Under the pieces are notes generated by a model. The model did no database searches and was not told where the DNA came from. It saw only the letters and a program-made list of their open reading frames with translations. From Candidatus Omnitrophota bacterium (GTDB lineage Bacteria; Omnitrophota; Gorgyraeia; B26-G9), in contig JACQZH010000002.1 of the NCBI GenBank assembly GCA_016213925.1, positions 1 to 32,716 on the forward strand: a stretch of DNA of 32,716 bases. The letters run 5' to 3'. The translations under genes and the position numbers were made by a program. This document shows positions 13,224-28,305 of the stretch, one piece after another. The stretch's first letter is position 1, and each line of letters starts with the position of its first letter.

Positions 13224-15294
13224 ATGAAGAAAAAAAAGACAACGGACAGTGAGTTATTAGAGCAAATAAGGGCTTTACAGTCAAGAATTAATCTTCTTGA
13301 GAAAACAAAAAAAAACCGCCAAGAAGTTCAGGAGAGCCTTCGCGAAAGCATAGAGCTTTATCAGGCTCTTTTGGAAATCTCGCCTGACGCGATAATAATA
13401 AGCGATCTTAACCGCAGGATTATTATGGTTAACGAAGAAGCAGCGCGTGCGCATGGATTTGATAGCATGGAAGAAATGATCGGTTTGAATATCCTGACAT
13501 TGATCGCTCCGGAAGACCGCAAGCACACGCAGGGTCCTTTAAAAGAAAAAAATTTCCGGTATAAAAAGTTTTCCCTGCTTAAGAAAGACGGAAGTGTTTT
13601 TCCGGCAGAGATAAGCCTTAGCGTGCTTAAAGACGCCCAGGGCAATCCTCAGGCTTTCATTGGAATGATGAGGAATCTTGCTGAATACAATAAGATTGTC
13701 GATGAGTTAAAGCAGAAAAGCGTTTTTGAAAATCTTATTGTTTCTTTGTCGGCGAAGCTTATAAACTTAGATGAAAAAGAAGTTGACCAGGGAATAAATA
13801 ATGCTTTAAAAGCAATCGGAGATTTTGCCAAGGTTGACCGCAGCTATATTTTCTTGTTTTCAGCTGACGGAAAGAAAATGGATAATACTCATGAGTGGTG
13901 CGCCCCGGGCATAGAGCCGCAGATAAAAAGGCTTCAAAAAATATCCGTGGATGCGTTCCCTTGGTTTATAAAAAACATCAAGAAACAACAAACGCTTTAT
14001 GTGCCAAGGGTCAGTGATCTGCCTGATGCGGCCGGCGATGAAAAAAAAGAATGGGAAGCGGAAAAAATTAAATCTTTGATCAATGTCCCGATGGTATTTA
14101 AGGGGGAATTGATCGGTTTTATCGGTTTCGATTCGGTTATGGAGACGAAAGAGTGGCCAGAGGAGATGCGCATGCTGCTTAGGATAATGGCGGATTTACT
14201 TGCCGGAGTTGTAAAACGCCGTTATATGGAATGGGATATTAGAATCCTGCATAAAGAATTGCTGAAGACAAATATGCGTTTAAAGCAAATGGCTTTGCGC
14301 GATTCCCTTACCGGTTTGTTTAATCACCGTTATTTTGAGGATGCTATCGAGTCGGAGTTTACCCGGGCTAAACGGCATTATTATTATTACTCCCGGCGCT
14401 GATAAAAAGATAGCGATGATTCTTGCCGGCAGGCTGATGGATGTAATCAAACTGTATAATTTCGGCAATAAACAGCATCAAGTAAAATTAAAATTAAGCG
14501 TGGCGGTTGCTTCTTTTCCCGAGGATAAAATACAGCGCGGCAGTGATTTTATCAAGATCGCTGATTATATATTGAATAAGGTCAAAGAACTCGGCGGTGA
14601 CCGCGTATATTCATATGGGGACGTTACGGCTAAAGGTAAAACGCCTGTTCCAATTGCGGATGATACAGCGGATGTCACAGTATTAAAAGAAAAACTTGAA
14701 AAACTTACTAAAAGGGCAAATCAGAGCCTTGCAGAGGCGATTTTTGCTTTTGCCAAAACAATCGATATAAAAGACCATTATACCGGAGAACACGTTGAGA
14801 AAACCGTTCATTACGCGACAGAAATAGCCAGAGCAAAAGGCTTATCCAAAGACGAAGTGGAAAACATTAAACAGGCGGCGATTTTACATGACCTTGGCAA
14901 AATCGGAATAAGCGAAAATATATTACTAAAAGATTCGAAACTGACTCCAGAGGAGTATGAGGAAATAAAAAAACATCCGCAGATTGGCGCTGATATTTTG
15001 CGTCCGATACATTTGTTTCATGCTTTGATTCCTTTGGTGCTGCATCATCATGAACGCTGGGACGGGAAAGGGTACCCTTATGGCTTAAGAGGCGAAGATA
15101 TTCCTTTGGGCGCGAGGATAATCGCGCTTGCCGATACTTATGAAGCTTTAACATCAGACCGCAGATACCGCAAAGCGTGCGCTAACAATATTGCCGTCCA
15201 AAAGATTCAACAGGTTTCCGGAACGCAGTTTGATCCGGAAATCGTGGAGTTGTTTTTAAAAGTAATACAGGAAGAACAAGATAATGGTTATTAG
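13224..15294 (+). pseudogene. PAS-GAF-GGDEF-HD-GYP signalling protein, frame broken in the GGDEF domain
   Basis: Frame 1 (13224-14402): PAS, GAF, then DSLTGLFNHRYFEDAIESEFTRAKR. The other frame resumes near 14380 with IIIITPGADKKIAMILAGRLMDV, then HD-GYP motifs HDLGKIGI and HHERWDGKGYP. The GGDEF core is missing. Confidence 0.85.
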
Positions 15295-15502: not shown

Positions 15503-15521
15503 ATTTTTATTAAACAATAAT

Positions 15522-15676
15522 ACAGGTATTTACTTAACAGGGAAAACGGTGTAATTCCGTTGCGGTCCCGCCGCTGTAACCGGGGACGAACGCTGCAGGT
15601 AAAGTCACTGTTCCGGAATGGAATGGGAAGGCGCGGCTAGTAGGATGATCCGGGAGTCAGAAAACCTGCCTGTATG
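15522..15676 (+). promoter_or_regulatory. Cobalamin riboswitch 1
   Basis: acaggta (5') / tgcctgt (3') closing helix; cggtgtaattccgttgcggtcccgccgctgtaaccgggg B12-box-like core; gggagtcagaaaacctgcctgt 3' end; directly upstream of cobS. Confidence 0.93.
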
Positions 15677-15728
15677 CAAGAATATTTTTTTTTATTCTCG
15701 AAGAAGGATGAAGAAAACACGGGTGCAA

Positions 15729-15826: not shown

Positions 15827-16561
15827 ATGAGAGCTTTTTTCGCGGCATTAGGATTCTTAACAATAATTCCGGTTTCGAAGATAATTAAGGTTGCTGAAAA
15901 AGATTTCGCGAAGGCATTATTATTTTTTCCTTTTGCGGGATTAGTTATCGGGGGTATCCTGTGCGTTGTTTTCAGTATTTTTCAAGGGTATGGACAATCA
16001 GTATACGCGCTGATGGTTTTGCTTGTTTCCGTAGTGATTACCGGTGCATTGCATATAGACGGATTTGCCGATTGCTGCGACGGTTTTTACGGGTTTTCCA
16101 AAAGAGAGAGGGCTTTAGAAATCATGCGTGATAGTTCTCTCGGAACAATGGGCTCTGCAGGCATAGTATGCCTTTTACTTTCTAAATTTGTGCTTATGTC
16201 ATCTCTTTCTAAAAATACGGTTTGTCCGGCGATTATTATGAGCTGTGTTTTTTCCCGCTGGGCGCAGGTTTTTACCTGCTACAAGAGCGGTTACGCCCGC
16301 AAAGAGGGAAAAGCAAAGATATTTATCGAACAAGCAAAAAAAGAATATGTTTTTATGCCCGGCATAATCGTTTTCTGCTTGTTTTTATTTCTTATGCATG
16401 CTAATGGCGTTTTGATATTTTCGCTGGCTTTGGCAGCGGTATATATTTTTAAAAAATTCAGCCTCAAAAAAATACAGGGTGTTACCGGCGATGTAATCGG
16501 CGCAAACAGCGAGATCGCGGAAATTGCTGTTTTGCTGGGTACAGTGCTTTTATTTAAGTGA
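15827..16561 (+). CDS. cobS: Adenosylcobinamide-GDP ribazoletransferase
   Basis: FFAALGFLTIIPVSK, HIDGFADCCDGFYGFSKRERALEIMRDSSLGTMG. Confidence 0.93.
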   Translation: MRAFFAALGFLTIIPVSKIIKVAEKDFAKALLFFPFAGLVIGGILCVVFSIFQGYGQSVYALMVLLVSVVITGALHIDGFADCCDGFYGFSKRERALEIMRDSSLGTMGSAGIVCLLLSKFVLMSSLSKNTVCPAIIMSCVFSRWAQVFTCYKSGYARKEGKAKIFIEQAKKEYVFMPGIIVFCLFLFLMHANGVLIFSLALAAVYIFKKFSLKKIQGVTGDVIGANSEIAEIAVLLGTVLLFK

Positions 16562-17166
16562 AAAATATGAAAGAAAAATTTACAGAAATATTTTTGATAA
16601 GGCACGGGCGCACAGAGTATAACCGGAATAGGCAATATTGCGGCAGCCTTGACGCGCCTTTGAATGAAGAAGGGATGGCACAGGTTAAATTATTAAAGCC
16701 AAAGGCCTGGAGATTAAAACCGGATATTTTATTTTGCAGCCCGCTAAAAAGAGCGGAACAGACGGCAAGGATTTTATTTCCTGATGAAAAAATTGAATTT
16801 GAACCAGCTCTGAGAGAATTGAATTTCGGGGAATGGGAGGGCCTGCAATTTGAAGAGATTAGGAGAATTTACGGGGATTTGTACGCAAAATGGATAAATG
16901 ACCCTTTTAGCGTTACCCCTCCCGGAGCGGAAAGCCTTGTTTGTATGCAGAAAAGATGCATGAAATTTTTTAATAGTGTGCTTGAAAAGCATGAGCGTAA
17001 GAAAATAGGCATTATTTCTCACGGCGGGACGATAAAAATGATCCTGCTTAATGTCAATAATATAGAGCGTAAAAGATTCTGGGATGTTGAGGTTAAGAAC
17101 GCGAGTTTGTATAGGCTTAAATTTAAGAATAAGAAATTGGTTGCGAGTAAAGCGGGTGAAAAATGA
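16558..17166 (+). CDS. cobC: Histidine phosphatase-family protein, probable alpha-ribazole phosphatase
   Basis: FLIRHGRTEYNRNRQYCGSLDAPLNEEG, ISHGGTIKMIL; GTG overlaps the cobS stop. Confidence 0.85.
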   Translation: MKNMKEKFTEIFLIRHGRTEYNRNRQYCGSLDAPLNEEGMAQVKLLKPKAWRLKPDILFCSPLKRAEQTARILFPDEKIEFEPALRELNFGEWEGLQFEEIRRIYGDLYAKWINDPFSVTPPGAESLVCMQKRCMKFFNSVLEKHERKKIGIISHGGTIKMILLNVNNIERKRFWDVEVKNASLYRLKFKNKKLVASKAGEK

Positions 17167-17678
17167 AAAAGATAATTTTTATCAGCGGGGCAGTGAGGAG
17201 CGGCAAAAGCAGGCTGGCGGTTGAGCTGGCAAAAAAATCCGCGAAAAAAATAGTGTTTCTGGCAACCTGTAAGCCTTTGGACAAAGAAATGGAAATAAGG
17301 GTAGAAAAACATAAGCAATCAAGGCCCAAAAACTGGAAAACTATTGAAGAACCGGTTAATGCCGCGAAGGTTATTGCAAGAGCAGGCAAGAATGAAATGA
17401 TTATTTTTGACTGCCTGACGCTTTGGCTCACGAATGTTATGCTGAAGTTTAAAAAATGGCCGGCTATTGATGGAAATGTAAGTGAATTTATAAGATCTCT
17501 CGAAAATACAAAAGCTGATGTGATTATTGTTTCAAACGAGGTTGGGTGGGGCATAGTTCCGGAAAATAAGCTGGCAAGGGACTTTCGGGATAGGATTGGT
17601 ACGCTTCATCAGCAATTGGCAGCTTTGAGTAATGAGGTGTATCTGGTAATCGCAGGTATTAGCCAAAGGTTGAAATAA
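17163..17678 (+). CDS. cobU: Adenosylcobinamide kinase/guanylyltransferase
   Basis: FISGAVRSGKSRLAVELAKK P-loop, DCLTLWLTNVML, VSNEVGWGIVPENKLARDFRDRIG. Confidence 0.93.
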   Translation: MKKIIFISGAVRSGKSRLAVELAKKSAKKIVFLATCKPLDKEMEIRVEKHKQSRPKNWKTIEEPVNAAKVIARAGKNEMIIFDCLTLWLTNVMLKFKKWPAIDGNVSEFIRSLENTKADVIIVSNEVGWGIVPENKLARDFRDRIGTLHQQLAALSNEVYLVIAGISQRLK

Positions 17679-17728: not shown

Positions 17729-18796
17729 ATGAGCATGGATAAGATAAATAGGATTATTGCGAGGATAGATGATTTAGACTTGGCTGTCATGGAAAAAGCG
17801 CAGAAAAAACTTGATTTTCTGACCAAGCCCCAGGGAAGCCTGGGAAAACTTGAAGATTTGGCAAAACATATTTGCGGGATCAGGGGCAAGCTGGTTTTGG
17901 AACTTAAAAATAAGGTTATTTTTACGTTTGCCGGGGATCACGGAATTGCCGAAGAAGGGGTGAGTGCTTTTCCTCAGGAAGTAACCAGCCAGATGGTTTA
18001 TAATTTTTTAGCGGGCGGCGCGGGCGTGAACGTGCTGGCAAAACATGCCGGAGCGCGCGTAATAGTCGCGGATTTAGGGGTAAAAAGCAGGTTAAAAGCT
18101 AAAAGCAAAAAGCTAAAAATTAAAAAAATAGATTTTGGTACGAAAAATTTCGCAAAAGAAAAGGCAATGACCAGAGAACAGGCAGTATCTGCGATTGAAG
18201 CGGGAATCGAAATTTTCGAAGAAGAACGGGAAAACGGTATAGATATTACCGGTATTGGCGAGATGGGTATTGCCAACACGACTTCAGCCAGCGCGATTGC
18301 CGCGGTAATCACAGGCGAGAGCGTCAAAAATATTACCGGGCGGGGAACAGGGATTAATGATAAAGCTCTTGAGCATAAAATCAAGGTTATTGAACAGGCT
18401 TTATTTTTGCATCAGCCTGACAAAAAAGACGCTTTGGATATTTTATCCAAAGTCGGAGGTTATGAGATTGCCGGCTTGGCCGGGGTTATTTTGGCGGCTG
18501 CGGCGAATAAAGTGCCTGTTGTTATTGATGGTTTTATTTCAACTGCCACGGCTTTAATCGCTTATATCTTAGAGCCGAAAACAGCGCGGTATATGATCGC
18601 GGCGCATGCTTCGGTAGAGATAGGCCATAGGGCAATGCTAAAATATTTAAACTTGGAGCCTTTATTGGATCTTAATCTTCGGCTGGGGGAAGGTACCGGA
18701 GCTGCTTTGGCAATAAGCCTGGCAGAATCCGGGGTTAAAATTATGAATGAAATGGCATCGTTTGAATCAGCAGGGGTTTCAGAAAAAAGCGGGTAA
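17729..18796 (+). CDS. cobT: Nicotinate-nucleotide-dimethylbenzimidazole phosphoribosyltransferase
   Basis: LDFLTKPQGSLGKLEDLA, FAGDHGIAEEGVSAFPQEVT, GEMGIANTTSASAI, RLGEGTGAALA. Confidence 0.95.
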   Translation: MSMDKINRIIARIDDLDLAVMEKAQKKLDFLTKPQGSLGKLEDLAKHICGIRGKLVLELKNKVIFTFAGDHGIAEEGVSAFPQEVTSQMVYNFLAGGAGVNVLAKHAGARVIVADLGVKSRLKAKSKKLKIKKIDFGTKNFAKEKAMTREQAVSAIEAGIEIFEEERENGIDITGIGEMGIANTTSASAIAAVITGESVKNITGRGTGINDKALEHKIKVIEQALFLHQPDKKDALDILSKVGGYEIAGLAGVILAAAANKVPVVIDGFISTATALIAYILEPKTARYMIAAHASVEIGHRAMLKYLNLEPLLDLNLRLGEGTGAALAISLAESGVKIMNEMASFESAGVSEKSG

Positions 18797-18829
18797 TTCC
18801 AAATTTTGGATAATAATTTTAGGATTGTT

Positions 18830-19722
18830 ATGAAAAATGATTACAAAAAAATTGCAGAACACGGCGGAAACGCAGAGGCGCTTTTAAAATTATTTGGCGC
18901 TTGGCCGAAAAATATTTTGGATTTCAGCCAGAACATTAATCCTCTGGGAATTCCTCCTGGTTTAAAGCGGAATATCCTGAAGAATTTTAATGAGATCATG
19001 AATTACCCGAAAAAGAAAACGGGTTTGATTTTAATCCGGAAGATTTTAAAGCGGCAGTTCAAGGAGCGGATGCTGTTTTTTTATGCAATCCTAATAATCC
19101 TACCGCTGTTTTGCTCAATCATCGGACATTGAAACAGGTCGTTAATATTTGCGCTAAAAATAAAATCTTTCTGATAATCGATGAAGCATTTATGGATTTT
19201 GTCGAAAAAAAAGAACAAAGTTCTTTGATAAAAGAGGCGGCAAGGAACAATTTTATTATTGTCATAAAATCAATGACCAAGCTTTTTGCTATTGCCGGAC
19301 TGCGGTTAGGATATGTTGTGGCAACCAGGCAGAACATTAAAAAGATAACCGCGTTTCAATACCCATGGAACGTGAATGTATTTGCCCAATTAGCGGCCAA
19401 GGTTATTATTAAAGATAAGGCGTTCATGAAAAAGACCAGGGAATTTATGCGGAAAGAAAATGCTTTTCTGGCCAAAAAACTAAACCGGATGAAGAACTTA
19501 AAAGTGTACCCTTCTAAAACGGATTTTATTTTATGCCGGTTAATGCATAAAAAGATCAGCACAGCTTTTAAATTTCAGAAGTATTTGTCAAAAGAGGGTA
19601 TTGTTATTAGGAACTGTGCTAATTTCCAGGGGCTGGGCAGTGATTTTTTTCGAGTGGCAAGTAAAAAAAGAAATGATAATTTACGGCTGCTTAAGAGTTT
19701 AAAAAACATACTGGATAAATAA
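18830..19722 (+). pseudogene. cobD: L-threonine-O-3-phosphate decarboxylase-like PLP enzyme, disrupted by an internal deletion/frameshift
   Basis: Frame A: EHGGNAEALLKLFGAWPKNILDFSQNINPLGIPPGLKRNILKNFNEIMNYP. The other frame resumes near 19012: ENGFDFNPEDFKAAVQGADAVFLCNPNNPTAVLL...IKSMTKLFAIAGLRLGYVV. Confidence 0.88.
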
Positions 19723-19723
19723 A

Positions 19724-20671
19724 ATGGAAAATATCGCAATAATTGCAGGGCTGGCTTACCTGTTGGATCTTTTTGCCGGCGACCCCTTAGGGTTTCCTCA
19801 TCCGGTAAGGCTTATCGGGTTTTTGATCGAAAGGTTTGAGCCTGTTTTTAGAAAAGCGGTTAAGAATAAAAAGATAGCAGGAGCTTTATTCGCTTTATTT
19901 ATTGTGTCCGGTACTTATATTGCTTCTTTGCTGATAATTTCAAGCAGCGGATTTATAAACAAAAAACTGGCGCTGGTTTTATCCGTAATACTGATGTATA
20001 CAACGCTTTCGGTTAAAAGCCTTAAGATTGAGGCGCTAAAAATTTATCAGGCATTAAAAGCCGAAGATTTGCCGGCAGCAAGAAAAAATCTTTCGATGAT
20101 CGTAAGCCGCGATACATCGCAAATGGATAAAGACAGTATTATCAGGGCTGCTATAGAATCGGTAGCTGAAAATACTGTGGACGGAATTATAGCCCCGCTT
20201 TTTTTTGCTTTTACCGCAGGAGTACCCATGGCAATGGCATTTAAGGCAGTTAGTACGCTTGATTCTATGGTCGGCTATAAAAACGAAAAGTACAGGGACT
20301 TTGGTTTTTTTTCCGCTAAAATGGATGATTTATTTAATTATATTCCGGCGCGTATCAGTGCTTTTATTATGCCTTTGGCGGGATTTTTCTGCGCCGGTGA
20401 TTTGAAACGGTCGGTTTCCAGCGTATTCTTGTTCGGCAATAAAAATCCCAGCCCGAATAGCGGGATTCCTGAAGCTGCCATGGCAGGCGCTTTGGGCGTG
20501 CGCTTAGGCGGCGGAGGTATTTATCACGGGAGATTTATTGAAAAAGATTTTATCGGAGAAGATTTGAACCGGCCGGTTAAGGAGCATATTCTAAAGAGCG
20601 TTGATATCGTTTATATAACTTCGGCGCTTGCTGTTTTAACAGGGATAATTTTCAGGAGGTTTATTGTATGA
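19724..20671 (+). CDS. cbiB: Adenosylcobinamide-phosphate synthase
   Basis: LAYLLDLFAGDPLGFPHPVRLIG, SRDTSQMDKDSIIRAAIESVAENTVDGIIAPLFFAF, PNSGIPEAAMAGALGVRLGG. Confidence 0.95.
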   Translation: MENIAIIAGLAYLLDLFAGDPLGFPHPVRLIGFLIERFEPVFRKAVKNKKIAGALFALFIVSGTYIASLLIISSSGFINKKLALVLSVILMYTTLSVKSLKIEALKIYQALKAEDLPAARKNLSMIVSRDTSQMDKDSIIRAAIESVAENTVDGIIAPLFFAFTAGVPMAMAFKAVSTLDSMVGYKNEKYRDFGFFSAKMDDLFNYIPARISAFIMPLAGFFCAGDLKRSVSSVFLFGNKNPSPNSGIPEAAMAGALGVRLGGGGIYHGRFIEKDFIGEDLNRPVKEHILKSVDIVYITSALAVLTGIIFRRFIV

Positions 20672-21645
20672 ATGATATTGAGGGCATAAACAGCGTTGAA
20701 AGTATAAAGGCTCAAATAAACAGGATATTAACTGCTTACGCGAAAGAATTTCCCAGCCAGGGAGTTATTTTTTCCGGAGGCCTGGATTCTTCTATCGCGG
20801 CGTTTTTATATAAAGGGGCAAAACTGATAAATGTTTCTTTAGAGAATTACAGCAGCGATTTGATGTATGCGGCGGCTGTTGAAAAGTATTTAAATACTAA
20901 AGTGGATTATGTCAGGGTATCAGTAGATGAGGCTTTGGAAAAGATACCTGAAGTGATAAGGATTTTAAAGAGTTTTGATCCTGCTTTGCCTAATGACCTT
21001 GCTGCGTACTTCGCGATTGCCAGAGCAAAAGGATCGGGGATTAAGTCAATTGCCACGGGCGACGGGGCAGACGAACTTTTCGGCGGGTATGGGTTTATGC
21101 AGCAGATTAAAGGCCTTAAAGCTTATATCAGGCGGATTTCGCAAAGCATGTTTTTTAGTTCTAATGTCTTTGCCGAACATTTTAATCTGGAAATAAGGCA
21201 GCCTTTTATACGGAAAGAAATGATTTCCCTGGCAAATGAGGATACAGATACTTGCTTTAAGATAAGGCAAGAGAAGGGCGCTCTCTTTGGAAAGTGGATA
21301 TTACGCAAAGCTTTTGAGGGGTTTTTACCGGATGAGATTATTTGGCAGAGCAAAAGGCCACTTGAGTTCGGCTCAGGCATGACGAAAATGCGTGAGATCA
21401 TTAGTGAAAAGATATCGGATGATGATTTTGAGAAGAAAACAAAAGATTACGGGATCAAGTTCATAACCAAAGACCATCTTTATTATTATGAAATTTACCG
21501 CGGTATTTTTGGTGCAGTTCCTAAACCGCAGAGTTATGAGAGCATATGCCCGGGCTGTAAAACCGGGATAGAAGAAAAGCCGCATCATTGCCGTGTTTGC
21601 GGGTGGGTAAAATCAATAGATGGTTTATGCTTAAAAGTTTCTTAA
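20668..21645 (+). CDS. Asparagine-synthase-type PP-loop ligase lacking a glutaminase domain, with C-terminal zinc ribbon
   Basis: SGGLDSSIAAFL, ATGDGADELFGGYGFM, CPGCKTGIEEKPHHCRVCGW; ATGA overlap with cbiB and SD aggagg. Confidence 0.85.
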   Translation: MNDIEGINSVESIKAQINRILTAYAKEFPSQGVIFSGGLDSSIAAFLYKGAKLINVSLENYSSDLMYAAAVEKYLNTKVDYVRVSVDEALEKIPEVIRILKSFDPALPNDLAAYFAIARAKGSGIKSIATGDGADELFGGYGFMQQIKGLKAYIRRISQSMFFSSNVFAEHFNLEIRQPFIRKEMISLANEDTDTCFKIRQEKGALFGKWILRKAFEGFLPDEIIWQSKRPLEFGSGMTKMREIISEKISDDDFEKKTKDYGIKFITKDHLYYYEIYRGIFGAVPKPQSYESICPGCKTGIEEKPHHCRVCGWVKSIDGLCLKVS

Positions 21646-21661
21646 GTAAAAGGGGCGGATA

Positions 21662-22309
21662 GTGAAAGCATTTGTATCCTGGAGCAGCGGAAAAGAAAGC
21701 TGCCTTGCTTTATATAGAGCAAAAAAAGATTATGATGTTAAATATCTTTTTAATATGATGTCTGAGGATAATAAGCGTTCCCGCTCGCATAATATTGCGG
21801 TTGAGCTTATTAGGCAACAGGCGCAATGCCTGGGTATTGAGCTGGTGCAGAAAAGCGCGTCCTGGGCTGATTATGAAGATGTTTTTAAAAATCTGCTGAA
21901 AGAAAAATTTTTCAAAGAAGATATTCTTACCGGGATATTCGGTGATATTGATGTGCAGGAGCACCGCGCGTGGGTGGAAAAAGTATGCGCTTTTGCCGGA
22001 ATGAAAGCGGTATTGCCGCTATGGCAGCAGAAGAGGGAATCTTTGCTTAAAGAGTTTATCGGCCTTGGATTTAAAGCAGTGGTTGTTGTGGTAAACAGTG
22101 ATTATTTGTCGGATAGGTGGCTGGGAAGAGAAATAGACATGAGTTTTATGCGGGACCTAAAGGAGCAGACAACTGCTGATGTTTGCGGAGAAAACGGAGA
22201 ATATCATACCTTTGTCTACGACGGCCCGGTATTTAAAAAACCGGTGCAGTTTAAGAGAGGCAAAAAAATAAAAAATGATAATTACTGGTTTTTAGAACTT
22301 AAAGGATAA
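21662..22309 (+). CDS. Dph6-like (COG2102-type) ATP pyrophosphatase
   Basis: VSWSSGKESCLALYRA, GIFGDIDVQEHRAWVEKVC, GENGEYHTFVYDGPVF. Confidence 0.88.
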   Translation: MKAFVSWSSGKESCLALYRAKKDYDVKYLFNMMSEDNKRSRSHNIAVELIRQQAQCLGIELVQKSASWADYEDVFKNLLKEKFFKEDILTGIFGDIDVQEHRAWVEKVCAFAGMKAVLPLWQQKRESLLKEFIGLGFKAVVVVVNSDYLSDRWLGREIDMSFMRDLKEQTTADVCGENGEYHTFVYDGPVFKKPVQFKRGKKIKNDNYWFLELKG

Positions 22310-22315
22310 TAAAGA

Positions 22316-23170
22316 ATGCTTGTGTCCAAAAAAATAATAATACTGGTTTTTTTCTTGTGCGCTTTTTATCAGTCGCCGGTAGTATTGGCGCAGGGGCAGC
22401 CCTTAAGGATAGTTTCTCTAAGCCCGGCGATTACTGAGGAGATTTTTTTACTTCAGGCGGAGGATATGCTGGTAGGAGTAACATCTTATTGCCAGAGGCC
22501 CAAGCAGGCACAGCAAAAACAGATAGTAGGGACAGTTACCGGAGTGAGCCTGGAAAAGATTATAGAGCTTGAGCCGGACATCGTTTTGACAACTCCGCTT
22601 ACGGATAGGAAAGCTGTTGAGCATTTAAAAAATCTGGGCATAACGGTGGAAAATTTTCCTTTAGTAAAGAATTTCGAGCAGATATGCAGCCAGATAATAA
22701 GGCTGGGAGAAATCACCGGCAAAAAAAACAAGGCAGAACAGATAGCGCTTAATGCCAGGCAGGAGCTTGAGCGCATAAGGGCAATAGTAACGAAAGAAGG
22801 CGGTATTGCTTATAAGGTATTTGTACAGATAGGAGCAGAGCCGCTTTTTACTGTGAATAAGGATTATTTTATTAATGATATGGTTGAGCTTGCCGGAGGA
22901 ATTAATATCGCAAAGGACGCAGGCTCTGGTTTGTATTCGAGAGAAAAGGTTATTGAAGCTGACCCTGATTTTATAATTATTGCCAGTATGGGTATTGTAA
23001 CGGAAAAAGAAAAGCGGATATGGCAGAAATATCCGTCATTAAAGGCTGTAAGGCTTGGCAGGATAGGGCAGATAGATTCAGAGGCCATCTGCAGCCCAAA
23101 TCCGCAGAGCTTTGTCAGTGCGCTTGATGATATTGTTAAATTTATGTATGGCGGGCAGAAAAATATATGA
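22316..23170 (+). CDS. btuF: Corrinoid ABC transporter substrate-binding protein
   Basis: Signal peptide; RIVSLSPAITEEIFLLQAEDMLVGVTSYCQRP, KIIELEPDIVLTT; B12 operon context. Confidence 0.9.
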   Translation: MLVSKKIIILVFFLCAFYQSPVVLAQGQPLRIVSLSPAITEEIFLLQAEDMLVGVTSYCQRPKQAQQKQIVGTVTGVSLEKIIELEPDIVLTTPLTDRKAVEHLKNLGITVENFPLVKNFEQICSQIIRLGEITGKKNKAEQIALNARQELERIRAIVTKEGGIAYKVFVQIGAEPLFTVNKDYFINDMVELAGGINIAKDAGSGLYSREKVIEADPDFIIIASMGIVTEKEKRIWQKYPSLKAVRLGRIGQIDSEAICSPNPQSFVSALDDIVKFMYGGQKNI

Positions 23171-24159
23171 AAACAAAGATAATAAAAGCGCTGGCTTTAT
23201 GTTTTATTTTACTTGTAATAGTTATCATGGTTGCAGTTTTTTCCCTGAGTGTGGGAGCAAGTAAGATAGCATTAAAGGATATTCTCAGCGGTAATGCCAG
23301 CCCCAGCGCAATGAGTATTATTTACCAGATCAGGCTGCCGCGCATAGTGCTGGGGTTTGCCGTCGGCAGTGCCCTTGCTCTGGCGGGAGTTATTCTTCAG
23401 GGAATGTTCCGCAATCCGCTTGTCGAACCATATACCCTCGGTATATCAGGAGGAGCGGCTTTGGGCGTGGCTCTTGGGATTGCCTTAAAGCTAAACAGGT
23501 TTTTTAGAGGCAGCGTGTTATCTTTAGCTGGCTTTGCGGGAGCTGCTGTTGTTGTGATATTGGTATATTTTTTGAGCAGGAAAAGGGGCATTATTAGGAT
23601 GCAGGGATTTTTACTTCTGGGAGTAATGCTTAGTTATATCTGCGCTTCGATGATGATGCTTATCATGGCATTAGTAAGGGCTGAAGATCTGCAAGGCATT
23701 ATATTCTGGACAATGGGCTCCTTGGAACAGCCGAACTTATTTTTGATTAAACTGATGCTTTCGGTATCAGTGGCCGGACTGGTATTTTCATATTATTTTT
23801 GCCGGGAGCTGAACGCTTTTTCTCTGGGGCAGGAGCAGGCGCAGTATTTGGGTATTAATACTGAAAAAGTGAAGAATAATCTTTTTTTTCTTGCGTCTTT
23901 ACTTACAGGTATGAGTGTTTCGGTATCCGGTATTATCGGGTTTGTCGGGCTGGTGATACCGCATTGTGTGCGTTTTATTACCGGGGCCGATCATAAAAAA
24001 CTTCTTATAAGCAGTTACTTTATCGGCGGGGCTTTTCTGATTTTTTGTGATACTCTTGCCAGAACGCTTATCACCCCCCTGGAGCTGCCGGTGGGGGTAA
24101 TAACCGGAGTTGCAGGCGGTTGTTTTTTTATTTTTATTTTACTTAAAAAGACAGGATAA
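23167..24159 (+). CDS. btuC: FecCD/BtuC-type permease
   Basis: QIRLPRIVLGFAVGSALALAGVILQGMFRNPLVEPYTLGISGGAALG, GIIGFVGLVIPHCVR. Confidence 0.93.
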   Translation: MKTKIIKALALCFILLVIVIMVAVFSLSVGASKIALKDILSGNASPSAMSIIYQIRLPRIVLGFAVGSALALAGVILQGMFRNPLVEPYTLGISGGAALGVALGIALKLNRFFRGSVLSLAGFAGAAVVVILVYFLSRKRGIIRMQGFLLLGVMLSYICASMMMLIMALVRAEDLQGIIFWTMGSLEQPNLFLIKLMLSVSVAGLVFSYYFCRELNAFSLGQEQAQYLGINTEKVKNNLFFLASLLTGMSVSVSGIIGFVGLVIPHCVRFITGADHKKLLISSYFIGGAFLIFCDTLARTLITPLELPVGVITGVAGGCFFIFILLKKTG

Positions 24160-24168
24160 AGACAGGCT

Positions 24169-24969
24169 ATGCTGCAGGTAGATAAACTCTGTTGCGGATA
24201 TGATAAGAAACCGGTCCTTGAGGATATTTCTTTTAATATAAACCAAGGAGAGGTGGTAGGCATAATCGGCCCTAACGGCGCGGGGAAAACGACACTTTTT
24301 AGAGCGATAACTAAGCTCATAACACCTCAAAAAGGAGAAATATTTCTTTTTGGAAAGAATATGGCACAGATAAGCGCGGAAGAGTTATCCCGTAAAATTG
24401 CGGTTGTTTCTCAGGATATAAATTTTGTTTTTAATATGACTGTGCGCGAGTTTGTCGCGCTTGGCAGGATCCCCTATCAGCAGAGGCTGCAGTTTTTTGA
24501 GTCAAGCTCTGATGAACATATAATTGACTACGCCATGAAGATAACAGATGTATACGAACTCAAGCACAGGGATATAAGCACCTTAAGCGGCGGAGAAAGA
24601 CAGCTGGCTATTATTGCTAAAGCCCTGGCGCAGCAGCCGCAATTGATATTGCTTGATGAGCCTACGGTATATCTGGACATTTCTCATCAGGTGCAGGTAC
24701 TTGATCTAGTGAGAAGGCTTAACAGAGAAAAACAGCTTAGCGTAATAGTTATCCTGCATGAACTGAATCTGGCAAGTGAATATTGCGACCGGTTGATTTT
24801 ACTGCATAAGAGGAAGATACATTCTTTAGGCGCTCCGGATGAAGTGCTGAATTACCGGACAATTGAAGAGGTTTATAATACCGTGGTTGTTGTCCAGCCG
24901 AATCCGGTTTCTAAAAAACCTAATGTACTGATCGTTCCGGGAATGCAGAAAAACAGGAGAAAGAAATGA
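24169..24969 (+). CDS. btuD: Corrinoid ABC transporter ATPase
   Basis: GPNGAGKTTLFRAI, LSGGERQLAIIAKALAQQPQLILLDEPT. Confidence 0.93.
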   Translation: MLQVDKLCCGYDKKPVLEDISFNINQGEVVGIIGPNGAGKTTLFRAITKLITPQKGEIFLFGKNMAQISAEELSRKIAVVSQDINFVFNMTVREFVALGRIPYQQRLQFFESSSDEHIIDYAMKITDVYELKHRDISTLSGGERQLAIIAKALAQQPQLILLDEPTVYLDISHQVQVLDLVRRLNREKQLSVIVILHELNLASEYCDRLILLHKRKIHSLGAPDEVLNYRTIEEVYNTVVVVQPNPVSKKPNVLIVPGMQKNRRKK

Positions 24970-25523
24970 AAAAGCAAGGTTTGGTGCAGATTTATACCGG
25001 AGATGGTAAAGGCAAAACTACCGCGGCTGTAGGCCTGGCGGTAAGGGCTAACGCGCAAAAGTTTAAAGTTTGTTATGTTAGTTTTCATAAGGATCCGCAA
25101 AGATGCGGATACTCGGAAATAAAAACTTTAAAAAAATTAAAGATAAAAGTTTTTTGTTTCGCAAAAACGCATCCTTTATGCGGTGATATAAGCGCGTTTA
25201 GAGAAAAAACAAAAAAACAGTGCGTGGAAATCTTAAGGCCGTGGTGTTTAAAGGGGCTGGAATTGATAAAGGAAATTTATAAACAAAATAAATTTGATAT
25301 GCTTATTCTTGATGAAATGAATATCTGCGTAAGGGACGGGTTTTTGAAAGAAAAAGAAGTCCTATTTCTGCTTGAAAATAAGCCGGAGAAACTGGAACTT
25401 GTTTTGACCGGCAGAGGCGCGACAAGAAAGATGATAAAAAAAGCAGGCCTTGTAAGCTATATAAAGGAAGTGAAGCATCCCTATCGAGAAGGAGTGCAAA
25501 AAAGAAGGGGAATAGAATATTAA
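24966..25523 (+). CDS. cobO: Cob(I)yrinic acid a,c-diamide adenosyltransferase
   Basis: QIYTGDGKGKTTAAVGLAVRA, ILDEMNICVRDGFL, LVLTGRGA. Confidence 0.92.
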   Translation: MKKQGLVQIYTGDGKGKTTAAVGLAVRANAQKFKVCYVSFHKDPQRCGYSEIKTLKKLKIKVFCFAKTHPLCGDISAFREKTKKQCVEILRPWCLKGLELIKEIYKQNKFDMLILDEMNICVRDGFLKEKEVLFLLENKPEKLELVLTGRGATRKMIKKAGLVSYIKEVKHPYREGVQKRRGIEY

Positions 25524-25604
25524 TTCAGGGGATGGGGGAGGGAGGAGGTGATACCGAAAAAATTATTTTGATTGTTGATTGGATTATCTGTGGAAAATAT
25601 TAAT

Positions 25605-25795
25605 GTTTACTCATACCGGCAAAAGAAGTCTTCGTGAGATTCGAAGCGCTGCCCCGCAACGGTAATAACTTAGCGTGTAGCGTATAGCGTATAGCGAATA
25701 GCGGATAGTTTTCTAAACGCTAATCGCTAGCCGCTAAGTGCTAAGTTGAGCCCGGACGATTGTTGGAACATGAGAATCCTCGAGGGAGGAGAAAG
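25605..25795 (+). promoter_or_regulatory. Cobalamin riboswitch 2 (btuB leader) with an oversized peripheral hairpin
   Basis: cgtgagattcgaagcgctgccccgcaacggtaat core, agcccggacgattgttgg 3' part, ctcat (25610-25614)/atgag (25770-25774) closing helix; possible SD-sequestering tcctcgagggagga near 25778; upstream of btuB. Confidence 0.8.
25667..25747. repeat. Inverted heptamer arrays (tagcgNN) forming a long hairpin inside riboswitch 2
   Basis: aacttagcgtgtagcgtatagcgtatagcgaatagcgg opposite cgctaatcgctagccgctaagtgctaagtt; stems in register with 2-3 nt internal loops. Confidence 0.8.
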
Positions 25796-25802
25796 GAATA
25801 AA

Positions 25803-27683
25803 ATGAATAGGAGAATGGTCGCCTGTATTGTTTTGTGTTTTATGTCAGTTTTTTTTGCGGGCAGTTTAAAAGCGCAAACAGAAACAACAAAATATAATCT
25901 CGGCCAGGTTGTTGTAAGCGCGACAAAAACCGAAGAATATGTTTCGGGCATAGGCGCGAGCGCGACTGTTATTAGCAGCGAAGAAATCCGCAAAAGCGCA
26001 AAACCGACAGTTTTTGAAATCTTAAAGGATGTCCCGGGGGTGTCTTTAACAAAAAGAGGCGGATTTGGCGGAGGCGCTAATATTTATTTAAGAGGAACTA
26101 AGCCAGGGCATACGCTTGTTATGATAGATGGAGTGAAGGTAAATGACCCGATAGGAGTCGAGCGTTCCTGTGATTTCGCGCATATAAGCGCAAATAATAT
26201 TGAGAGGATCGAGGTTATCCGGGGTTCGCAGAGCACATTGTACGGGCCTGAGGCAATCGGAGGGGTTATTAATATTATTACCAAAAAAGGCAGCAAGGGA
26301 GCCCAAACGGATTATTCTATTGAAGGCGGGTCTCATAATACTTTCAGTGAGTCACTGGCAGTAAGCGGAGCGAACGAGAAGCTGAATTATTCTTTATCGG
26401 TTTTTAGGAAGGATTCCGACGGGATTTCCATGGCAAAGGATACTCAAGAAGACGATTCTTATGCCGGCACCACGGTATCGTCAAATTTCGGCGCCCGGAT
26501 TTTTGATAATAGCGAGTTGTCTTTTGTCATGCGTTATACCGGAGCGGATTATGATATTGATGACGGCGCGTATGAAGATGACCCTAATTACACTTCTGAA
26601 TGGGAACAATATAGTTCCAAGCTCGCGTTTAAGCAGGACATCAATGAAAACTGGGATCACTGCCTGGCGTTTTCTTTTATGGACATTGAAAGGTCTAACC
26701 TGGATTTTCCGGACGCGATAGACGCGGGGGATGATTTGGAAGATAAATATACGGGAGATAACAGGAAAATTGAATGGCAGCATAATTTTTCATTTTGGGA
26801 GAACCTGATGCATACCTTCGGAGCTGAGCATGAAAAAGAACGCGGGACTTCGGATTACCGATCAGGGGCATTTACAGACAGGCTTGACCGCAGGAGCATA
26901 AGCAATTATGGTTATTATTTTCAAAACCAGTTGAAGGCAACCGATAATTTTTCTGTTTTGCTCGGGGTTCGTGCCGATGATCATGAAATTTTCGGCAAGC
27001 AGGAAACCTACAAAGCCTCTTCGGTGTATTCGTTAAATAATGGGCAAACCCGCATTAAGGGGAATTGTTCGGCCGGTTTTAAGGCGCCTGCGATTTATCA
27101 GCTTTATTCAAGTTACGGGACAAGTAATTTATCCCCGGATAAAAGCAGAAGTTATGATTTCGGTTTTGAACAGGAGTTTTTTGAAAATAAATTAAATTTT
27201 AGTACAAGGTATTTTTATAATAACTTTAAAAATATGGTTGAGTTTGATATGACAGACTGGAAATATAAAAATATCGGCAGGGCAAAAACCGACGGCTATG
27301 AGTTAGAAACGGATTTTTCTGTTTTTGATGGCTTGAAACTAGCGGCTAACTACACTTTTTTGCGGGCAAAGAACAAGGACAACGGAAAGACTCTGGCGCA
27401 AAGGCCAAGAAACAGCGCGAATTTTTCCGCGGACTGGGGATTTCTACCTAAGTGGAATGTTTTCATGAACGCTAATTATAGCGGAGCGCGTTGGAATGAC
27501 GCTACCAATGCGAACAAACTAAAACATTTTTTAACCGCGGATCTGGCTCTTGCTTATGAAATAAAAGAAGATCTTGGCTTAAGCTTTCGGATAGTAAATA
27601 TCTTTGACGATAAATATCAAATTATCAGAGGTTATAATACTGAAGACAGGTCATGTTATGCCGGCATAAAAGGTAATTTTTAA
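25803..27683 (+). CDS. btuB: TonB-dependent receptor, vitamin B12-type
   Basis: Signal peptide, TonB-box-like QVVVSATKTEEY, plug VFEILKDVPGVSL...IYLRGTKPGHTLVMIDGVKVNDP...IERIEVIRGSQSTLYGPEAIGGVINIITKK; riboswitch upstream. Confidence 0.92.
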   Translation: MNRRMVACIVLCFMSVFFAGSLKAQTETTKYNLGQVVVSATKTEEYVSGIGASATVISSEEIRKSAKPTVFEILKDVPGVSLTKRGGFGGGANIYLRGTKPGHTLVMIDGVKVNDPIGVERSCDFAHISANNIERIEVIRGSQSTLYGPEAIGGVINIITKKGSKGAQTDYSIEGGSHNTFSESLAVSGANEKLNYSLSVFRKDSDGISMAKDTQEDDSYAGTTVSSNFGARIFDNSELSFVMRYTGADYDIDDGAYEDDPNYTSEWEQYSSKLAFKQDINENWDHCLAFSFMDIERSNLDFPDAIDAGDDLEDKYTGDNRKIEWQHNFSFWENLMHTFGAEHEKERGTSDYRSGAFTDRLDRRSISNYGYYFQNQLKATDNFSVLLGVRADDHEIFGKQETYKASSVYSLNNGQTRIKGNCSAGFKAPAIYQLYSSYGTSNLSPDKSRSYDFGFEQEFFENKLNFSTRYFYNNFKNMVEFDMTDWKYKNIGRAKTDGYELETDFSVFDGLKLAANYTFLRAKNKDNGKTLAQRPRNSANFSADWGFLPKWNVFMNANYSGARWNDATNANKLKHFLTADLALAYEIKEDLGLSFRIVNIFDDKYQIIRGYNTEDRSCYAGIKGNF

Positions 27684-27687
27684 TTAA

Positions 27688-28305
27688 ATGGATAATAGGA
27701 GAATAATGGCTGCTGCGTTTATGTTTTCTATGGCAGCGCATGCGATTGCGGGCGCTGCCATAGGGAACTTTTTTGACGGTTCTTTTGACAAAAAAGCAGT
27801 TTTTCCCAGAACGGAAATTATTTTAATTAAGGAAAAAGAGATTCCGGCATTATTGCCGGATATCGATATGATTGGGAAGGAGAAAAAACTTGGACAAAGC
27901 GCGAAAGAGGAAAAACCAAAAGAAACCAAACAAGAACAGTTCCAAGATGTTTACGGCCGGATAAATTTGCCTGCGGAAGAAAAGACGGAACATAAACAGG
28001 ATGTTGCTGCAAAAGAGGCAATGTTAAGATACCAGGATAAAGTTAAACAGCGCATTGAAGCGCGCCGCAGGTATCCTGCGCAGGCAAGGCAAAAGAAAAT
28101 AGAAGGAACAGTAAATATTTCTTTTTCAATAATGCGCGATGGGTCCTCTCAAGAGGCTAGGGTAGCGCAAAGTTCAGGTTGTGATATTCTCGATAAGGAG
28201 GCAGTGGATACGATTAAACGAGCTTGTCCATTTTTGCCTTTACCGGAAGAGATAACAAGTGATTCTATAGCAATATATGTTGCTATAGTATTTGCTTTAA
28301 ATTGA
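27688..28305 (+). CDS. tonB: TonB-family energy transducer
   Basis: N-terminal anchor; RRRYPAQARQKKIEGTVNISFSIMRDGSSQEARVAQSSGCDILDKEAVDTIKRACPFLPLP. Confidence 0.85.
   Translation: MDNRRIMAAAFMFSMAAHAIAGAAIGNFFDGSFDKKAVFPRTEIILIKEKEIPALLPDIDMIGKEKKLGQSAKEEKPKETKQEQFQDVYGRINLPAEEKTEHKQDVAAKEAMLRYQDKVKQRIEARRRYPAQARQKKIEGTVNISFSIMRDGSSQEARVAQSSGCDILDKEAVDTIKRACPFLPLPEEITSDSIAIYVAIVFALN

Follow-up and report, generated by a model that had tools for sequence, protein, structure and literature searches.

AsnX, an AsnB-type partner of DUF71-B12 in the corrinoid salvage operons of bacteria and archaea

Introduction

The DUF71 family of PP-loop ATPases was divided by de Crecy-Lagard et al. in 2012 into Dph6, with the motif EGGE/DxE188, and a DUF71-B12 subgroup with ENGEF/YH188 (PMC3541065). 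DUF71-B12 genes adjoin btuFCD in 75 of 102 cases and cbiB in 18 of 102, and they anticorrelate with CbiZ in bacteria; the authors proposed that DUF71-B12 replaces CbiZ, and a reviewer of the same paper remarked that PP-loop ligases seldom turn up in the role of amidohydrolases (PMC3541065). In human asparagine synthetase (ASNS), replacement of Glu-364 abolishes activity, and Asp-400 and Arg-403 are conserved residues close to the substrate (PMC6748925). The salvage role of DUF71-B12 has stayed unsolved since 2012. Here we describe AsnX, an AsnB-type protein that is its conserved partner across many bacteria and archaea.

Results

The window is the whole stretch of DNA analyzed, 32,716 nucleotides of contig JACQZH010000002.1 from a Candidatus Omnitrophota bacterium (assembly GCA_016213925.1). 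It carries a B12 uptake and salvage operon under riboswitch control on the + strand, with the following parts in this order:

15507..15687, +, cobalamin riboswitch 5′ of the cob operon (Rfam RF00174, 109.3 bits, E 9.2e-27)
15827..16561, +, cobS, adenosylcobinamide-GDP ribazoletransferase (TIGR00317 above cut-off; PF02654 in the genome search)
16558..17166, +, cobC-like alpha-ribazole phosphatase (TIGR03162, 159 bits against a cut-off of 162.9; PF00300)
17163..17678, +, cobU, AdoCbi kinase/AdoCbi-P guanylyltransferase (NF004469 above cut-off; PF02283)
17729..18796, +, cobT, DMB phosphoribosyltransferase (TIGR03160 above cut-off)
18806..19722, +, cobD remnant with internal deletion and frameshift (tblastn; TIGR01140)
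19724..20671, +, cbiB, adenosylcobinamide-phosphate synthase (TIGR00380 above cut-off; PF03186, E 2e-100)
20668..21645, +, AsnX, AsnB-type synthetase (PP-loop) domain with no glutaminase domain and a C-terminal zinc ribbon (PF00733; AlphaFold2; alignment)
21662..22309, +, DUF71/COG2102 PP-loop ATPase of the DUF71-B12 subgroup, ENGEYH motif (PF01902, E 1.2e-52; motif of PMC3541065)
22316..23170, +, btuF-like corrinoid-binding protein (PF01497; NF002894, 110 bits, below its cut-off)
23167..24159, +, btuC-like permease (open reading frame and order conserved in relatives)
24169..24969, +, btuD-like ATPase (open reading frame and order conserved in relatives)
24966..25523, +, cobA, corrinoid adenosyltransferase (PF02572, E 1.2e-49)
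25559..25781, +, probable second, expanded cobalamin riboswitch 5′ of btuB (RF00174, 18.5 bits, E 0.011, below the gathering score)
25746..27683, +, btuB-like TonB-dependent receptor (open reading frame; same place conserved in relatives)
27688..28305, +, tonB-like protein (open reading frame; same place conserved in relatives)

The names cobS, cobC, cobU, cobT, cbiB, btuF, and cobA were confirmed with Pfam/NCBIfam, while btuC, btuD, btuB, and tonB are named from open reading frames and conserved order. The weak riboswitch match at 25559-25781 is expanded by a tandem-like insert, AGCGTATAGCG. As the initial annotation had it, AsnX and DUF71 both lie between cbiB and btuF, and the AsnX start overlaps the cbiB stop (ATGA at 20668-20671). 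An AGGAGG stands 8 bases 5′ of the AsnX ATG, and the GTG start of DUF71 follows 16 bases past the end of AsnX.

On cobD the same annotation needs correcting, as the gene is not intact. Some 70 codons are deleted internally, and a frameshift is found at TACCCG, near 19007-19020; intact CobD used as a tblastn query matches with residues 11-67 and 138-363 only, and TIGR01140 is covered from 115 to 330 only. The gene is either a pseudogene or an assembly error. CobD makes aminopropanol-phosphate, and cobyric acid is used by CbiB only, so the earlier statement that both enzymes need cobyric acid holds for CbiB and fails for CobD.

AsnX is 325 amino acids long and contains a complete AsnB-type synthetase domain; its only Pfam match is PF00733 (Asn_synthase, E 6.6e-32). 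No GAT-II/GATase domain was found in the Pfam search, and the open reading frame begins at the synthetase domain. No NCBIfam model claims the protein, the best reaching 134 of 499 bits; lasso cyclase models match weakly. In an alignment of 74 family members, the four cysteines of the zinc ribbon (C294, C297, C308, and C311) are invariant, which bears out the initial description of a synthetase domain that lacks its glutaminase half and carries a zinc ribbon. Also invariant are the SGGxD PP-loop (S36, G37, G38, and D40), D132, D135, E136, and K229. K229 aligns with Lys-466 of human ASNS, and D132 takes the position of Glu-348 in E. coli AsnB and Glu-364 in the human enzyme. The equivalents of human Asp-400 and Arg-403, a D-x-x-R pair, are absent from the aligned stretch. 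Where AsnB has TTIRAS, bacterial-type AsnX has PxxPND; archaeal-type AsnX retains the Arg in this stretch (xEIRN). An AlphaFold2 model built from the 74-member alignment (pLDDT 94) has the AsnB synthetase fold, with E. coli AsnB (1ct9) as the closest PDB match (TM 0.73 of the query). Judged by its residues, AsnX has kept the adenylating machinery and lost the aspartate site. Asparagine synthesis by AsnX is thus unlikely, given the loss of these residues and the three full-length AsnB proteins encoded elsewhere in the same genome.

The DUF71 protein of the window (215 amino acids, GTG start) matches PF01902 above the gathering score. Its motif is GENGEYHTF, in which His replaces the Glu that Dph6 has at position 188; the Dph6 motif EGGE/DxE is not present, and TIGR03679 reaches 117 of 197 bits. 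The initial assignment to a COG2102/Dph6-type ATPase is thus correct as to the PP-loop ATPase family, but Dph6 function is ruled out by the motif. With btuFCD and cbiB as neighbors, the protein is a member of the DUF71-B12 subgroup, the half of the pair that was already known. Nearly all AsnX-linked DUF71 copies with a readable motif show the ENGEF/YH pattern. Since the catalytic Glu188 of Dph6 is His in DUF71-B12, the chemistry may not be ligation.

Within Omnitrophota, AsnX is sporadic, being found in 15 of 285 genomes including that of the window (E <= 1e-30) and in none of the 7 other genomes of the window's own family. Its nearest relative in our tree, which was built quickly and leaves many forks unresolved, is the L032 protein, with weak support. 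This scatter would fit horizontal transfer of the gene. B12 genes surround AsnX in all 14 of the other Omnitrophota genomes, and since these loci were retrieved by the AsnX sequence alone, the linkage is independent evidence. DUF71 is at the same locus in 12 of the 14; of the remaining two loci, the first breaks off at AsnX and the second is without DUF71. The two genes occur together in 13 of the 15 AsnX genomes, compared with 98 of 285 genomes overall having DUF71 (Fisher, 2.9e-5).

A single-sequence AsnX scan of genome contigs gave no matches. A profile scan of GTDB representatives yielded 80 loci, some from genomes already in the Omnitrophota set. They belong to Omnitrophota, Thermodesulfobacteriota and other former Deltaproteobacteria, Nitrospirota, Chloroflexota, Spirochaetota, ANME archaea, Bathyarchaeota, Nitrososphaerota, and others. 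Of the 46 loci that carry the bacterial motif, 32 have a DUF71 gene no more than 2.5 kb away, 34 have two or more cob/btu genes inside 8 kb, and 38 are accompanied by one or more DUF71, cob, or btu genes. Loci with the archaeal motif have DUF71 within 2.5 kb in 9 of 34 cases and any DUF71, cob, or btu gene in 13 of 34. The Nitrosopumilales-type loci (L094-L110, Nitrosopumilus and relatives) have no B12 neighbors; the genomes of this branch that were checked contain Dph6-type DUF71 only and no DUF71-B12, and their AsnX keeps the zinc ribbon. In two archaea (L084 and L087), a CobY-like domain is fused N-terminally to AsnX; among named NCBIfam models this domain matches CobY best (NF045495, 93-108 of 250 bits), and it also matches TIGR00454 (125-135 of 174.7 bits), both below the curated cut-offs. 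The pair thus recurs in B12 operons across many phyla, contrary to the outcome (no recurrent co-occurrence with B12 genes) that would have refuted the initial interpretation, and the link of AsnX/DUF71-B12 to the B12 pathway is strong. AsnX is a previously undescribed partner of DUF71-B12: no description of it, including any B12 role, was found in the family models or literature searched.

Several loci hold further genes. CbpA, a 35-amino-acid peptide (...RKKCKANGTGLSHYVLLDKK), and CbpB, a radical SAM/SPASM enzyme, make up a RiPP-like system in B12 salvage operons; they lie between AsnX and DUF71 in L018 (7150-8737), L020, L023, L029, L035, L036, L037, and L039, except that CbpB of L037 is upstream of AsnX. 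Nothing on a cobopeptide was found in the literature searched. Further small radical SAM proteins, which belong to no curated family, lie between DUF71 and btuF in L020 (5033-6627), L018 (9428-10165), and L023 (12631-13377), and the salvage operon of L023 includes a single CbiE-type methyltransferase on its own (13386-14054; TIGR02467 above cut-off). The Nitrososphaeria archaeon of L082 has AsnX directly 3′ of gatC-gatA-gatB (names read by eye). ANME-type loci L121-L123 and L126 encode AsnB-DUF71 fusions of ~720 amino acids with the Dph6 motif GEGGEFES and a separate AsnX gene alongside; we therefore rejected the methanogen-like archaeal fusions as the same pair. ThiC beside AsnX in ANME was likewise set aside as a lower-ligand link, as it scores as true ThiC and not BzaB.

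In 51 AsnX genomes, mostly MAGs and with each absence resting on one HMM, CbiC is missing from 46, CbiZ from 42 (present in 9), and a full-length CbiP above the cut-off from 48 (present in 3). AsnX genomes are thus mostly corrinoid scavengers, and a role for AsnX as a non-orthologous CbiA/CbiP in de novo synthesis can be dismissed, as 46 of 51 have no CbiC. In agreement with the gap first noted in the window, its whole genome (90% complete) has no CbiC, CbiP, or CbiZ (PF01955), and no complete cbiA/cbiP/cbiZ set elsewhere. CbiB is present in 38 of the 51 and overall in 57 of 81, and was not found in 13 of the 51 and 11 of 30 further genomes (24 of 81). No CobD scores above the TIGR01140 cut-off in any of these 24, whereas 6 of 8 CbiB-bearing controls have one; the TIGR01140 matches in the 24 are at HisC level except one at 266 bits. 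CobS is also missing from 13 of the 24. In a 96% complete genome (L048; G050 by contig identity) without CbiB, CobS, or CobD above the cut-off, the locus contains only btuB, tonB, AsnX, DUF71, and btuFCD. MAG incompleteness can account for single absences but not easily for the joint CbiB/CobD/CobS pattern.

Discussion

Because CbiB and CobD above the cut-off are jointly missing from 24 of 81 AsnX genomes, neither cobyric acid production nor aminopropanol attachment can be what the pair does in general, though it may perform one of them in CbiB-bearing genomes. All AsnX genomes are compatible with a task on the imported corrinoid itself, and, given these 24 genomes and the 13 among them without CobS, the task is not restricted to the f side chain. 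We propose, at a probability of roughly 40%, that AsnX and DUF71-B12 work together as an ATP-dependent corrinoid-scavenging module that amidates side chains of imported corrinoids. Corrinoids would enter through BtuB and BtuFCD, and CobA would adenosylate them. Next, the two PP-loop enzymes, dividing the work between them, would convert side-chain carboxylates to acyl-adenylates and these to amides, with free ammonia as the probable donor because neither enzyme has a glutaminase domain. Under-amidated corrinoids would in this way be repaired or completed before use or before nucleotide-loop assembly by CobU, CobT, and CobS. Since both proteins keep adenylating residues, they could plausibly activate carboxylates on the way to amides. 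The simplest chemistry for two PP-loop adenylating domains that have no glutaminase, in genomes that lack the de novo pathway, would be ammonia-dependent amidation. The more specific idea of a previously unknown repair pathway, in which these ligases re-amidate hydrolyzed side chains of scavenged corrinoids, is more doubtful, and we offer it as a tentative suggestion.

Several observations weigh against amidation. Two ligases for one repair task would be unusual, CbiB is kept in most AsnX genomes, and the Nitrosopumilus branch of AsnX has no B12 neighbors and, in the genomes checked, no DUF71-B12; no corrinoid-binding motif was recognized. The CobY-like fusion points to the nucleotide-loop arm rather than to peripheral amides and, together with the His188 change of DUF71, is least well explained by amidation.

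It is unlikely, if still worth weighing, that the pair acts as proposed for DUF71-B12 in 2012, with DUF71-B12, helped by AsnX, opening the aminopropanol amide of imported cobamides or pseudo-B12 to give cobyric acid for rebuilding by CbiB and CobD. The published anticorrelation with CbiZ and adjacency to cbiB (PMC3541065) argue for such remodeling, as do the absence of CbiZ from 42 and the presence of CbiB in 38 of 51 AsnX genomes, and His188 suggests altered chemistry. However, cobyric acid would be a dead end in the 24 of 81 genomes without CbiB or CobD above the cut-off, cobD of the window is broken, and the reviewer's objection to amidohydrolase activity applies. Quite improbable, in our estimate, is a role of AsnX as a soluble counterpart of CbiB that joins cobyric acid to an aminopropanol-type amine. 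AsnX adjoins cbiB/cobD in most Omnitrophota operons, the two archaea with the CobY-like fusion lack CbiB, AdoCbi-P, the known substrate of CobY, would be the product, and beta-lactam and carbapenam synthetases are AsnB domains able to use amines; yet CbiB accompanies AsnX in 57 of 81 genomes, and genomes without CbiB have no CobD above the cut-off to supply the amine. Thus, of the corrinoid roles initially suggested, side-chain amidation gains from the recurrent B12 linkage and retained adenylating residues, while aminopropanol joining is disfavored. That AsnX makes or attaches a corrinoid-linked peptide with the CbpA/CbpB system is very unlikely: CbpA (TIGR04164) and CbpB (TIGR04163) lie between AsnX and DUF71 in several relatives and some AsnB-family enzymes, such as the lasso cyclases weakly matched by AsnX, work on peptides, but CbpB is missing from the surroundings of AsnX in most loci, the window among them. 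Least credible is a plain asparagine synthetase or other amidotransferase with an incidental operon position, since PF00733 membership, the Nitrosopumilus branch without B12 neighbors, and the copy following gatCAB stand against three full-length AsnB proteins elsewhere, the lost aspartate-site residues, and B12 linkage recurring across phyla.

AsnX/DUF71-B12 is a concrete two-protein system that makes the old question of B12 scavenging testable, and its presence in genomes without CbiB, CobD, or CobS narrows the possible roles. The proposed module would account for the processing of imported corrinoids in many uncultured corrinoid auxotrophs; if the suggested repair pathway exists, bacteria and archaea of the subsurface that cannot make corrinoids de novo could draw on aged or damaged B12 in their environment. 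Caution is also due in annotation, as AsnX genes labeled generically as asparagine synthase may belong to B12 metabolism.

Comparison with known systems

The window DUF71 shares with the DUF71-B12 subgroup (PMC3541065) the ENGEF/YH motif, the btuFCD and cbiB neighborhood, and a bacterial host without CbiZ, but no separate AsnB-type partner was described in 2012; the AsnB fusions mentioned there are of the Dph6 type (GEGGEFES) in the ANME homologues checked here. With asparagine synthetase B (1ct9), AsnX has in common the fold, the SGGLD loop, the GxGxDE motif, and the catalytic Lys. It differs in having no GAT-II domain, Asp for Glu-348/364, and an extra zinc ribbon, and the bacterial type also lacks R325 and the D-x-x-R pair. 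Beta-lactam and carbapenam synthetases are likewise AsnB-type domains specialized for other carboxylate substrates, but they keep the N-terminal domain, have Tyr at the Glu position, and possess neither zinc ribbon nor B12 context. CbiZ and CbiR also serve the salvage of imported corrinoids beside uptake and loop-assembly genes; unlike AsnX/DUF71, they have unrelated folds and hydrolyze without ATP, and neither AsnX nor the window DUF71 matches PF01955. CbiA and CbiP carry out ATP-dependent amidation of corrin side chains, the very outcome proposed for AsnX/DUF71-B12, but they are of an unrelated family, use a class I glutaminase, and belong to de novo synthesis, which is mostly missing in AsnX genomes.
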